Shown here: piece by piece, positions 15,160 to 21,271 of the stretch
How positions within the stretch are numbered: the stretch's first letter is position 1
How the letters are laid out: every line of letters starts with the position of its first letter
Source: Myxacorys almedinensis A
GTDB lineage: Bacteria; Cyanobacteriota; Cyanobacteriia; Leptolyngbyales; Leptolyngbyaceae
Length of the DNA stretch: 64,000 bases
Reading direction: 5' to 3'
Assembly: GCF_010091945.1 (NCBI RefSeq)
Contig: NZ_WVIE01000008.1
Span: forward strand, 1-64,000
Position numbers and translations under genes: made by a program
Notes under the pieces: model-generated
What the model saw: the letters and a program-made list of their open reading frames with translations, nothing else
Database searches by the model: none
Told to the model about the DNA's origin: nothing

Positions 15160-16416
15160 ATGAGCGAGATTCAGCTAGAGCAATGCTACAAACTGCTTGG
15201 GCTAGAGCCAGGAGCCTCTGTTCAAGAAATCGATGCTGCCTATTCTAAAACGATGTTTGAGAAATTGCGGCAAGGCGCTAAACACGAAAAGCAACCTCTC
15301 AAACTAGCCTATGAAACACTGAGAAATTATACGCTGATGCAAGCGTGTGAAACGGCTCAAGACGACCCGACTTCTGCCCTACCGCGCAGCATTGCCGAGC
15401 ATCTGAATCAACAGTTTGGCGCTCAACAGGTGCACGTTCAAATCAAGCTGCACCAGGATGAGTTGCAAGTGTTGCTCAAAGCAAAGCAGCCTCCTAGCGT
15501 TGAGTTTGCAAAAGTGGTGTATCGCAGCTTGAGCACATTGGAACTACCAAACATCAAACTCGTCAACATTTACGGGATGCGAGGAAACCAGTCTATTGCG
15601 TGGAAACAGCAATTTCAGCTTTTTGAAACTTATTCACCAACAGATTCAGATCCCTATTCATTTGAGAATCGCAATATTAATACTTTAGCGTTTCCTGTAG
15701 CGCTCATTTTTGCCTGGATTACGAATGTAACTCCCTTAAAAATTTTATTTCGCTCGACTCATATTTGGATTCACGAAGTCGGACATGCAACCGTTGCATG
15801 GCTTGCCGGGCGGAAAGCAACTCCTCTGCCCTTTGGCTGGACAAATATTGAAGAGGCGCGATCGCTATTCGTCTACGGCGGCATTCTGGTTTTACTTGGG
15901 CTGTTGTTTTGGGCAGGCAAACGCGAAGGCAAACCTTGGCTTATGGGGTTAGCCATTGGCTTTGCTGCTTTGCAGTTCTACATGACATGGCTCATGCCGA
16001 CCGATGCCTACGAGATGTGGCTATCGTTTGGTGGCATTGGTGGCGAATTTTATCTCAGCACCCTGCTGATGGCTGGCTTTTACGTTCCCCTCCCCGATCG
16101 ATGGCGCTGGGATTTTTGGCGATACTTCGTCGTTCTTGGAGCCGCCAACACGCTCTGGTCTAGCTTTTTGCAATGGCACCAGATCAAAATCGGCAACGAT
16201 ACCATTCCCTGGGGAACGCTGTTTGGCGGCGGTGGAGATGCAGGCGGAGATATGAATCAGTTGAGTTTGGTTTACGGTTGGAGCGATCAGCAAATTATTA
16301 ATACTTATAGCCAGTTGGGGAACACCTGTCTGATCATCTTAATTGGCATTTATGGCATCATGCTGATTAAAGGAGATCCTGCCTTTTTGATTAAGCTACG
16401 CCAACGGTTTAGGTAG
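15160..16416 (+). CDS. J-like domain fused to a membrane HExxH putative metalloprotease
   Basis: The 418-residue protein has a soluble N-terminal third that begins like a J domain (CYKLLGLEPGASVQEIDAAYSK, then LAYETLRN) but lacks the HPD motif needed to stimulate Hsp70. From about residue 175 there are six or seven hydrophobic segments. HEVGH at 205-209 (IWIHEVGHATVAWLAG) is an HExxH zinc-peptidase motif at a membrane boundary, as in site-2-type proteases. A Gly/Asp-rich loop (GGGGDAGGDMNQ, about 356-367) could give a third ligand. The substrate is unknown. A non-catalytic membrane role cannot be excluded. It is separate from rsmA by 156 bp. Confidence 0.6.
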   Translation: MSEIQLEQCYKLLGLEPGASVQEIDAAYSKTMFEKLRQGAKHEKQPLKLAYETLRNYTLMQACETAQDDPTSALPRSIAEHLNQQFGAQQVHVQIKLHQDELQVLLKAKQPPSVEFAKVVYRSLSTLELPNIKLVNIYGMRGNQSIAWKQQFQLFETYSPTDSDPYSFENRNINTLAFPVALIFAWITNVTPLKILFRSTHIWIHEVGHATVAWLAGRKATPLPFGWTNIEEARSLFVYGGILVLLGLLFWAGKREGKPWLMGLAIGFAALQFYMTWLMPTDAYEMWLSFGGIGGEFYLSTLLMAGFYVPLPDRWRWDFWRYFVVLGAANTLWSSFLQWHQIKIGNDTIPWGTLFGGGGDAGGDMNQLSLVYGWSDQQIINTYSQLGNTCLIILIGIYGIMLIKGDPAFLIKLRQRFR

Positions 16417-16714: not shown

Positions 16715-19700
16715 ATGCTAGACCACCTGAAAATTGGAACCAAAATTGGCGCAGGCTTTACCCTTGGCTTGGCGATCTTCGCCGCGATCGGGGGTATCGC
16801 CTACCGGGGAACCAATCACTTGATCGAAGCATCACGGTTGGAAAAGCACACCTACGAAGTGTTAGGAGAGCTTAAGAATGTTTTATCGCTCGTGCAAGAT
16901 GCCGAAACCGGACAGCGCGGCTACATTATCACCGGCGAAAAGCGATATCTTGAACCTTACGAAACCGCTAACAAGGCAGTCGGCGAGAAGCTTACAAACA
17001 TCCGACGGCTGACGCAAGACAATCCGGTGCAACAAGCCAGCCTAAATGCGCTAGAGCCTGCGATCGCAACTCGGCTCGGCATTTTGCGAGAAACCCTTGA
17101 GGTGCGGCAACGACAGGGGTTAGAAAGAGCTATTTCAGCGATTCGCAGCAATCGCGGCAAAAACGCGATGGATAACATTCGTCGGATGGTGGCAGCGATG
17201 GAAGATCGGGAGCGCCAGTTGCTAGAGCAACGCACCCTAGTCGCGCGCTCAGCCGCTCAAAATACCCTAAACAGCATTACCTACGGCATACCGATCTCCC
17301 TGGGTTTGCTCGTTTTGCTAGGCGCTCTGCTGGCTCGCAGCATTGCAAAACCTATTAAAAAAATCTCTGACCTCACCGAAATTGTTGCTGGAGGCGATCT
17401 CGATATCAATTTACCAAAAAGCGATCGTACCGATGAAGTTGGTATTTTGACGCGCAACTTCAACAAAATGGTGACCAACTTGCGCGAAACAACCCTGCGG
17501 AACCAAGAGCAAACCTGGCTCAAGTCCAACATTGCCGAATTGAGCCAACGGATGCAAGGGCAGCGGGAGTTTGAATCGGTCGCCCGGTCGCTTTTATCTC
17601 AGCTTGTGCCCTTGGTCAACGCCCAGCAAGGCGCATTTTATGTCGCCGAAACCCTCAATGCCAAACCGATTCTACACTTGCGCGGTAGCTATGCCTATCA
17701 AGAGCGCAAACATCTGGGTCATCAGTTTCAGCTAGGTGAGGGTTTGGTTGGGCAGTGTGCTCTAGAAAAGCAACGCATCTTGTTGACTGAAGTTCCCAGT
17801 GATTATATTCGCATTGGCTCTGGGTTGGGTGAGGCGACGCCGCTCAACATTGTGGTGCTGCCGATCGTGTTTGAGCAGCAGGTGCTGGCGGTGCTAGAGT
17901 TGGCATCTTTTCAACGATTTACCAACGTTCATCTTCGTTTGCTCGATCAAGTCAGTGAAACAATTGGGGCGGTGCTGGTTGCGATCGCAGCGTCGTTGCG
18001 CCAGCAGGAACTGTTAGAAGAGTCTCAGACACTGGCAGAAGAACTGCAAGCTCAGCAAGAAGAGTTAGAAGAAAGCAACGAGCAGCTACATGCTCAAGCT
18101 AAAGCGCTACAGATATCTGAACAACTGCTGCGGCAGCAACGAGAAGAATTGAAGCAATCCAACGATGAACTACAGCAACTCAACGAAGAATTAGAAGAAA
18201 AAGCCGAATCGTTGGAAGCACAAAAACGCAAAGTAGAACTCAAAAATGATGAGATTGAGCAAGCACGAACATCGCTCCAAGAAAAAGCTGAGCAACTCGC
18301 GCTTTCCTCTAAATATAAATCAGAGTTTCTAGCCAACATGTCCCATGAGTTGCGGACACCCTTAAACAGTTTGCTGATTTTGGCACGGCTATTGTCGGAC
18401 AATACAGAAGGTACTTTAACCGATAAACAAGTCGAATACAGTAAGACCATTCATTCCTCTGGAAACGATCTGTTAATCCTAATCAACGATATTCTTGACC
18501 TGGCAAAAATTGAATCGGGAACTCTATCAATCGACATTGAGACGGTTTCTTTCACCGAGCTACGAGGCAGCCTAGAGCGAGCGTTTCGGCAAATTGCCAA
18601 TGAAAAAGGCGTGTCATTTGCCATTACTCTAGACGACTCGTTGCCTGATGCGATCGCAACGGATAGCAAGCGATTGCAGCAGGTGTTGAAAAATTTGTTG
18701 TCCAATGCGTTTAAGTTTACTGATCACGGTCATGTCACATTGCGAATCAGCAGTACTCAACGATCGACCGAGCAAAGCTCTGACATGGGTAATGCAACGA
18801 TTTCGTTTGCCGTTAGCGATACTGGGATTGGAATTGCGGCTGACAAACAAAAGATCGTGTTTGAAGCCTTTCAACAGGCAGATGGCACAACTAGCCGCCG
18901 CTATGGCGGCACCGGACTTGGCTTGTCGATCAGTCGCGAAATTGCCTACTTGCTCGGTGGAGAGCTTCGACTGGTGAGCCAGCCAGGGCAAGGGAGCACC
19001 TTTACGCTGTCTCTACCGCAGCTTTATCGCGGTGGTGAAGTGTCCCATCCTTCTGCTGAAGGGCAGTCTCCTAGGGCGCTTCCCAGCGAGCCGATCTCGT
19101 CGGGTTATCTGATCCGTCGAGAAACGCCGAGTAACCGTTCTGATGCCTCTGAGCCAATGTCTCAAACCGTGCAACGACCCTACAGCCCAGATATTGCTGA
19201 CGATCGCGGCGCAATTCAACCGGGCGATCGCACGTTGCTGATTATCGAAGATGACGTCAAATTTGCCAAAATTCTTCTAGAGATGGCAAGAGAGCAAGGC
19301 TTTAAGGGGTTGGTTGCGCTGCGAAGCCAGACCGGATTAGCCCTCGCTCAGCAATTTCAACCGCATGCAATCATGTTAGACATTCACCTGCCCGATGGCG
19401 ATGGGTGGATGGTGCTAGATCGGCTGAAGCGCGATCCCAACAGCCGTCACATTCCAATTCATATTCTGTCTAGCGATGATCAGCGTCAGCGGGGGTTACA
19501 ATCTGGTGCGATCGCATATCTTGTCAAGCCAATTTCACCAGAAGCACTATCGCAAGTGTTAATAGATATCAAACACTTTATCGAACGCCAGGTCAGAAAT
19601 TTGCTTATCGTTGAAGATGATCCAGTGCAAGCGCAAAGTATTGTTGAATTGATTGGCAATGGAGATGTCAAGAGCATCACTGTCTATACAGGAGCAGAAG

Positions 19701-20398
19701 CGCTAGAAGCCTTGAAAACAGACACGTTTGATTGTGTTGTGATGGATTTGGGTTTGCCCGACATCAACGGAATTGACTTGATTGAGCAGATCAAGCAGGA
19801 ATCAGGGTTAGCTGATTTACCGATCATTATTTATACCGGGAAAGAGCTAACTCGTCAAGAAGAGACGCACCTCAAACGCCTTGCCGAAACGATCATTGTT
19901 AAAGACGTGCGATCGCCAGAGCGCCTTTTAGATGAAACCTCAATCTTCTTGCACCGGATGCAGTCCAATTTGCCGCAACCCAAGCGCCAAATGTTGGAAT
20001 CATTGCGCCAAGCTGATCCGATTTTGGCAAACAAAAAAGTGCTGATTGTCGATGATGATGTTCGCAATATTTTTGCCCTCACCAGTTTGCTCGAAGGTTA
20101 TCAGATGCAGGTGGAGTATGCAGAAAATGGTCGAGATGGGCTTGATGTATTGCAGGCAAATCCTGATATCGATATTGTGTTGATGGACATTATGATGCCA
20201 GAAATGGATGGATACGAAACCACTTGTGCCATTCGCCAGCAAAATAGTATGCGATCGCTGCCGATTATCGCCCTCACTGCCAAAGCTATGCAGGGCGATC
20301 GCGAGAAGTGCATCGAAGCTGGAGCGTCAGATTACATTACAAAGCCGGTTGATTCTGAGCAGCTAATTTCTCTATTGCGCGTATGGTTATATCGGTAG
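16715..20398 (+). CDS. CHASE3-HAMP-GAF hybrid histidine kinase with three receiver domains
   Basis: The 1227-residue protein has TM1 (about 10-32), a CHASE3 sensor containing AETGQRGYIITGEKRYLEPY, TM2 (about 187-207), HAMP, GAF (about 290-430) and a long Glu/Gln-rich coiled coil. HisKA follows with SHELRTP (His 544), then HATPase_c (DTGIGIA, GTGLGLSI) and three receivers with Asp 889, 1011 and 1158. Receiver 1 keeps EDD and Lys, receiver 3 is fully canonical, and receiver 2 has YTGKELTR and VKD at the expected Thr/Lys places. This is the layout of large cyanobacterial phosphorelay kinases. CheR follows after 27 bp, as is common with such kinases, so the two probably form an operon that links signal relay to methylation. 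Confidence 0.93.
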   Translation: MLDHLKIGTKIGAGFTLGLAIFAAIGGIAYRGTNHLIEASRLEKHTYEVLGELKNVLSLVQDAETGQRGYIITGEKRYLEPYETANKAVGEKLTNIRRLTQDNPVQQASLNALEPAIATRLGILRETLEVRQRQGLERAISAIRSNRGKNAMDNIRRMVAAMEDRERQLLEQRTLVARSAAQNTLNSITYGIPISLGLLVLLGALLARSIAKPIKKISDLTEIVAGGDLDINLPKSDRTDEVGILTRNFNKMVTNLRETTLRNQEQTWLKSNIAELSQRMQGQREFESVARSLLSQLVPLVNAQQGAFYVAETLNAKPILHLRGSYAYQERKHLGHQFQLGEGLVGQCALEKQRILLTEVPSDYIRIGSGLGEATPLNIVVLPIVFEQQVLAVLELASFQRFTNVHLRLLDQVSETIGAVLVAIAASLRQQELLEESQTLAEELQAQQEELEESNEQLHAQAKALQISEQLLRQQREELKQSNDELQQLNEELEEKAESLEAQKRKVELKNDEIEQARTSLQEKAEQLALSSKYKSEFLANMSHELRTPLNSLLILARLLSDNTEGTLTDKQVEYSKTIHSSGNDLLILINDILDLAKIESGTLSIDIETVSFTELRGSLERAFRQIANEKGVSFAITLDDSLPDAIATDSKRLQQVLKNLLSNAFKFTDHGHVTLRISSTQRSTEQSSDMGNATISFAVSDTGIGIAADKQKIVFEAFQQADGTTSRRYGGTGLGLSISREIAYLLGGELRLVSQPGQGSTFTLSLPQLYRGGEVSHPSAEGQSPRALPSEPISSGYLIRRETPSNRSDASEPMSQTVQRPYSPDIADDRGAIQPGDRTLLIIEDDVKFAKILLEMAREQGFKGLVALRSQTGLALAQQFQPHAIMLDIHLPDGDGWMVLDRLKRDPNSRHIPIHILSSDDQRQRGLQSGAIAYLVKPISPEALSQVLIDIKHFIERQVRNLLIVEDDPVQAQSIVELIGNGDVKSITVYTGAEALEALKTDTFDCVVMDLGLPDINGIDLIEQIKQESGLADLPIIIYTGKELTRQEETHLKRLAETIIVKDVRSPERLLDETSIFLHRMQSNLPQPKRQMLESLRQADPILANKKVLIVDDDVRNIFALTSLLEGYQMQVEYAENGRDGLDVLQANPDIDIVLMDIMMPEMDGYETTCAIRQQNSMRSLPIIALTAKAMQGDREKCIEAGASDYITKPVDSEQLISLLRVWLYR

Positions 20399-20425: not shown

Positions 20426-21271
20426 ATGTCTTCTGAACATCAATCTTTTAAACATCAATCTTTAGAGGAAATTGAGATTCAACTTTTGCTAGAAGGCATT
20501 TACCGCTACTATGGCTACGACTTTCGCAACTATGCGCCCTCTTCTCTAAAGCGGCGAATTATAGGCTTTCTAAATACCGAAAACCTGTCCAGCATCTCGG
20601 CACTTCAAGATCGCGTTTTGCATGACCGAGAGTGCCTCGTTCGTCTGACGCGCAGCCTTACGGTGAATGTCACCTCAATGTTTCGTGATCCAAGCTTCTA
20701 CATTGCCTTCCGAAAATGTGTCATTCCTATCTTGCGAACTTACCCCTTTATTCGCATCTGGCACGCAGGTTGCTCAACGGGAGAAGAAGTGTATTCAATG
20801 GCAATTTTGCTGCAAGAAGAAGGACTTTACGATCGCTGTCGGCTCTATGGTACTGATGCAAACGAATCGGTCTTGCACATCGCTAGAGGGGGGGTTTATC
20901 CGTTGCGATTTATGAGAGGCTACACCCAGCTTTATCTCAATTCGGGAGGGCAGCGATCGTTCTCTGAATACTATACGGCTGCTTATGAGGAAGCCATCTT
21001 GAGAAGCTCGCTCAAACGAAACATGGTATTTGCTCAGCACAACTTAGTTACAGATGGTTCGTTTAATGAGTTTAATGTTATTTGTTGCCGCAATGTTCTC
21101 ATCTATTTTGATCGAACCTTACAAAGGCGAGTCCATGACTTGTTTTATAACAGCTTATGCTCGTTCGGAGTTTTAGGATTGGGGCGGCAGGAGTCGGTTA
21201 AATTTACTCAGTATTCTGCTCACTACAATGAGCTATCTCCGCTAGAAAAGATTTATCGCAAAATAAGTTAA
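20426..21271 (+). CDS. CheR-type protein-glutamate O-methyltransferase
   Basis: The 281-residue protein has the CheR fold: an N-terminal helical part with YYGYDFRNYAPSSLKRRI, then FRDPSFYIAFR, the SAM loop IRIWHAGCSTGEEVYSMAILL and NVICCRNVLIYFDRTLQRRV. CheR enzymes transfer methyl groups from SAM to glutamates of chemoreceptors or related coiled-coil proteins. No chemoreceptor or cheB is nearby. The partner is most likely the CHASE3 kinase encoded 27 bp upstream, whose coiled coil is Glu/Gln-rich. That pairing is inferred. Confidence 0.92.
   Translation: MSSEHQSFKHQSLEEIEIQLLLEGIYRYYGYDFRNYAPSSLKRRIIGFLNTENLSSISALQDRVLHDRECLVRLTRSLTVNVTSMFRDPSFYIAFRKCVIPILRTYPFIRIWHAGCSTGEEVYSMAILLQEEGLYDRCRLYGTDANESVLHIARGGVYPLRFMRGYTQLYLNSGGQRSFSEYYTAAYEEAILRSSLKRNMVFAQHNLVTDGSFNEFNVICCRNVLIYFDRTLQRRVHDLFYNSLCSFGVLGLGRQESVKFTQYSAHYNELSPLEKIYRKIS

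Follow-up and report, generated by a model that had tools for sequence, protein, structure and literature searches.

A J-like module without HPD joined to a putative M50-like membrane metalloprotease in a patchily distributed cyanobacterial protein family

The gene at positions 15160–16416 of the analyzed window, a 64,000-nucleotide stretch of Myxacorys almedinensis A, raises the question of what a protein does that joins a J-like domain to a membrane HExxH protein. The preliminary description had noted a J-like start without HPD and, after it, a membrane part of several helices in which HEVGH occupies residues 205–209, and had proposed that such a J module could pass unfolded clients on to an intramembrane peptidase. 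The open reading frame bears out the first of these statements. We read the protein as a divergent M50-like intramembrane zinc metalloprotease with Hsp70-independent docking modules, probably cytosolic, and assign this reading a probability of about 0.6. The protein and its homologues are termed family A, and a second set of related proteins is termed family B. The gene is organized as follows.

15160–16416, + strand: whole gene of the family A membrane HExxH protein, 418 amino acids, ATG start, from the open reading frame and homologues
15172–15339, + strand: J-like module without HPD, residues ~5–60 (hhalign 97%; AF2 helices at residues 3–13, 21–37 and 44–66)
15379–15624, + strand: unnamed α/β module, residues ~74–155, common to many cyanobacterial proteins
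15670–16374, + strand: membrane part, residues 171–405, with about seven helices predicted by AF2 at low confidence and a Pfam M50B match over residues 180–221 only
15772–15786, + strand: HEVGH, residues 205–209, with proposed zinc ligands H205 and H209 and proposed catalytic E206, from column conservation
16045–16047, + strand: invariant E296 in GGxGGE (61/61), which pairs with the Glu of GxGME in family B
16249–16251, + strand: invariant D364 in GDMN (61/61), candidate third zinc ligand, which pairs with the second Asp of DNDF in family B

In the Pfam search, the 418-residue protein passes the cut-off of PF13398 (Peptidase_M50B-like) with 26.3 bits against 26, a margin of 0.3 bits over 42 matched residues, and the likeness is confined to the HExGH helix. 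Other proteins score below this cut-off, including L110 of family A (20.7) and L015 and L027 of family B (12.6 and 13.0). A DnaJ match to residues 9–33 remains below threshold (16.6 bits, cut-off 27.8). The single NCBIfam match is to a YopR model (16.4 against a cut-off of 114), and a sequence search of solved structures returned two matches at chance level (E 0.42 and 0.62).

Phylogenetic distribution had been suggested as a check, and family A proved patchy in cyanobacteria, with a profile of ten members placing it in 70 of the 388 genomes of the class. An initial search with the query protein gave matches in 37 of 58 related genomes, in many of them through the α/β module alone. The ten-member profile matched 74 of the 388 genomes at E ≤ 1e-10, of which G004, G014, G020 and G071 were removed as weak matches, the first three being carriers of family B. 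The family A alignment comprises 61 open reading frames from 60 of the 70 genomes, G137 supplying two; a second, weaker frame of L121 (344 amino acids, E 1e-14) was left out of the set. Ten genomes were kept outside the alignment by choice (G015, G024, G031, G034, G130, G273, G289, G340, G361 and G384). Among these, a stop interrupts the match in G289 and G384, the copies in G024, G031 and G340 are incomplete, and those in G034 and G015 keep the motifs in a separate 12-row alignment.

Non-conservation of HEVGH among homologues had been named in the preliminary description as a finding that would speak against a peptidase. This objection fails, because HExGH is intact in 60 of the 61 members and the D364 and E296 columns are invariant. 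H205 and G208 are likewise found in all 61, E206 and H209 in 60 each, and N366 in 56; elsewhere, W339 and W374 are present in 61 members and E256 in 59. The residue following D364 is Met in 55 members and Leu in six. The HExGH and GD(M/L) motifs occur jointly in 60 of the 61, as do HExGH, GxGxE and the Asp motif taken together, with a spacing of 151–155 residues between the last His and the motif Asp in the 60 members that have both. From composition alone, HExxH is expected 0.007 times in the 418-residue protein. A third conserved position had been anticipated near residues 356–367, a range that includes D364. In the proposed mechanism, a zinc ion within the membrane would be coordinated by H205, H209 and, probably as third ligand, D364, while E206 would activate a water molecule and E296 would probably shape the site.

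The sole exception to the motifs among the 61 is L099, the second copy in G137, in which a stop codon lies inside the match and HExGH has decayed; the other G137 copy, L073, keeps the motifs. This stop-interrupted copy is the little that can be cited for a catalytically dead pseudo-protease scaffold. Scaffolds usually lose their catalytic motifs, and the joint retention of all three motifs runs contrary to this pattern, making such a scaffold highly improbable.

A divergent metalloprotease, as we propose, invites comparison with the site-2 proteases, which are defined by HExxH and NPDG in PMC4284730, where four of them were profiled in Synechocystis. The HExGH of family A lies in a helix (residues 194–215) that is assigned to the membrane by a low-confidence prediction. 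The third motif of site-2 proteases, NPDG or xDG, is absent across the 61 members, in which D364 precedes Met or Leu and not Gly. Family A shares with the cyanobacterial site-2 proteases Sll0528, Slr0643, Slr1821 and Sll0862 and other M50 kin a HExxH in a predicted membrane helix, a multi-helix membrane architecture and a distant conserved Asp. It differs, by description, from these four in having neither NPDG nor LDGG and in carrying the J-like and α/β front modules. In profile comparisons, 18 LDGG-bearing proteases of related genomes align with family A at the HExGH helix (73%, 30 columns), with no alignment found beyond it, and L155, a strong member of PF13398, aligns in the HExGH surroundings only (58.6%, 38 columns). 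Because D364 lacks the Gly of NPDG and only the HExGH helix aligns with the LDGG proteases, the protein follows the pattern of an intramembrane metalloprotease but not that of a standard site-2 protease.

A further comparison is provided by family B, whose membrane part is homologous to that of family A (220 aligned columns, 97.7%, E 1.6e-12, 22% identity) and whose motifs are in register, with H205, E206, H209, E296 and D364 each standing opposite an identical residue. A direct search relating family B to the query protein gave only local similarity. The two families share the α/β front module and differ in that family B has mostly GHGME and DNDF where family A has GGxGGE and GDMN. Family B also differs in having no J-like module, as none of its genes appeared among the listed matches to that module in the 58 related genomes. 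The family B loci are L015–L018, L023, L027, L029, L190, L191, L193 and L194, all HExGH membrane proteins.

This homology also bears on whether the metal site might serve a non-peptidase role, for example in a lipid-modifying or a regulatory metal-binding protein. The nearly invariant acidic and aromatic residues beyond the zinc motifs (E296, E256, W339 and W374) would suit such a role, as would the missing NPDG and the lack of a fold match. E256, however, is not kept in family B, HExGH with a distant Asp is a metalloprotease pattern, and the query lies above the M50B cut-off. We therefore regard a non-peptidase role as unlikely.

At the level of full matches, family A was found in 70 and family B in 54 of the 388 genomes, and no genome had both, where 9.7 would be expected if the two were independent and kinship is ignored. 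These counts depend on list thresholds that we chose (E ≤ 4.6e-40 for A and ≤ 1.9e-41 for B, with four and 12 weaker matches dropped), and the best four or five candidates were scored per genome. The mutual exclusion is as expected if both families do the same job. Genus g103 has family A in two species and family B in another, which suggests that one family has replaced the other. By the same lists 264 genomes have neither family, so the function seems dispensable.

Structure prediction gave models of low confidence. With four sequences each, AF2 reached a mean pLDDT of 55 for the full length and 50 for the membrane part alone, the best-modeled part being the J-like helices (block-mean pLDDT 66–85, residues 1–60). 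The middle module is modeled in the order helix-strand-helix-strand-strand, and the membrane helices follow downstream of it. A Foldseek search of the model against the PDB gave no match at E ≤ 0.001; weaker hints were a J domain (2och, probability 0.84, E 3.8) and an α-lytic protease prodomain-like structure (4hlb, probability 0.82, E 2.8). VIA-align of the membrane model returned unrelated proteins with a top Z of 4.0; no site-2 protease was among the best 50 rows, a result that carries no weight given the low confidence of the model. The J-like and α/β modules precede the first membrane helix and would probably be cytosolic. By positive-inside counts, a seven-helix path with the N-terminus inside fits only if residues 216–254 are re-entrant or cross the membrane twice.

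A profile of 15 J-like modules, two of which carried one wrong flanking letter each, matches ten J domains encoded in the query's own genome (hhalign 97%, E 1e-10), and the three AF2 helices given above are those of a J fold. In this alignment the HPD loop of the J domains lies opposite a gap, and HPD is absent from the stretch between helices II and III in all 45 J-like modules; the one HPD string found, in L070, is in the loop between helices I and II. The module is present in 45 and absent from 14 of 59 family A members, the 59 being the 61 minus L099 and L076, which is truncated at its 5' end. A quickly built tree of the membrane part needs at least six changes to explain where the module occurs (two if only well-supported branches are counted), compared with 12.8 for shuffled labels on the same tree, of which 0 of 500 were as low as observed. 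The f36 branch, adjoining the midpoint root, has the module. Given the low count and the f36 branch, an early fusion followed by several losses is plausible. Strong matches to the J-like module (E ≤ 6e-22) in the 58 related genomes number six, all of them family A proteins. The other 32 listed matches have E 3e-8 at best; of these, the 14 inspected at their loci are J proteins with HPD, for which the ordinary J profile gives a better score.

It is on these data that the proposed feeding model has to be judged, in which the J module would bring unfolded clients, or clients bound to Hsp70, to the intramembrane protease to be degraded. The J-like fold is genuine by its profile match, and its occurrence in 45 of 59 members, the f36 branch included, with few changes on the tree, implies that it is kept for a reason; ordinary HPD-bearing J proteins are also encoded in the same genome. 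For the CPP1/CJD1-like family of Pfam, which we take to be PF11833, neither the query protein nor its front piece has a match up to E 1, and the parallel with CJD1 drawn here is one of description, not of sequence. HPD is thought to be essential for contact with Hsp70, according to PMC3196505. The same paper describes CJD1 (At1g08640) as an HPD-less J-like chloroplast membrane protein of plants that failed to complement a dnaJ/cbpA mutant and that its authors concluded not to be a co-chaperone. As described there, CJD1 resembles family A in having an HPD-less J-like domain ahead of membrane helices and in being specific to photosynthetic organisms. It differs in having three predicted membrane helices, whereas family A has about seven together with HExxH and the α/β module. 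Since HPD is missing from that position in every J-like module, 14 of 59 members do without the module altogether, and the CJD1 parallel points the same way, Hsp70-based feeding is not supported and seems very unlikely, although the module may bind clients without Hsp70. A docking role independent of Hsp70, as suggested by CJD1, would fit better.

The preferred reading, a metalloprotease with front modules that would probably dock substrates or regulators without Hsp70, also has to account for the middle α/β module, which the preliminary description had overlooked. This module (~94 residues) is distinct from the J-like and membrane parts. No Pfam family matches query residues ~74–155 or three isolated pieces of other copies, and the copy in L028 has a weak GGDEF match below the cut-off (E 0.08). 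Within family A it stands before the J-like module, after it, or on both sides of it. The genome encodes the module at eight places in five open reading frames, including the query gene. The other four carriers are L148, L149, L151 and L152, and the 1043-residue frame of L149 has four consecutive matches. Across the class, it was found in 96 of 116 cyanobacterial genomes at up to 13 places per genome, in carriers that include kinase-like, NB-ARC-like and pentapeptide proteins, kinds that were assigned by eye. Carriage by unrelated kinds of protein would suit an interaction module of general use, which we infer it to be. In L028 (HEGGH ... HDWN), the middle module is attached to a different HEGGH membrane protein, possibly a third kin of families A and B; a profile comparison gave no significant match (4%).

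We tentatively suggest, as a possibility and not a conclusion, that a single undescribed intramembrane metalloprotease of cyanobacteria exists in two forms, family A and family B, which replace one another from genome to genome. In this enzyme, the third-ligand Asp would be placed in GDMN or DNDF instead of NPDG, and substrates would be taken up through docking modules, among them a J domain that has lost its contact with Hsp70. Membrane proteolysis in cyanobacteria would gain a branch if this is a distinct family with a motif of its own and adaptor modules built into the protein. The fusion would also offer a testable case for the role of an HPD-less J-like domain, and would highlight an unnamed module common to most sampled cyanobacteria. 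In the open-access literature, judged by titles and the beginnings of abstracts, no paper on a cyanobacterial J-domain/M50 fusion was found. Strings reading 'M50' in PMC3196505, PMC7824862 and PMC3710099 are DOI fragments in reference lists.

The surroundings of the gene vary between genomes. Across 61 loci (60 and the window), no class-wide conserved neighbor of family A was found beyond clades; the commonest neighbor cluster occurs in 18 loci, at varying places and mostly in one clade. Plasmids, phages and viral contigs gave no match to family A. With neither a conserved neighbor nor a mobile copy, the function must be argued from the protein alone. Promoter and terminator scans at the gene gave scores close to shuffled means. 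Upstream of the gene lie an AIR synthase (purM-like) gene and a gene with an rRNA adenine dimethylase domain. The histidine kinase adjoining the query belongs to a cluster found in 14 of the 61 loci, at varying positions and on varying strands. In the window, this downstream gene (16715–20398) encodes a large hybrid histidine kinase with CHASE3, HAMP, GAF and three receiver domains, and is followed by CheR at 20426–21271.
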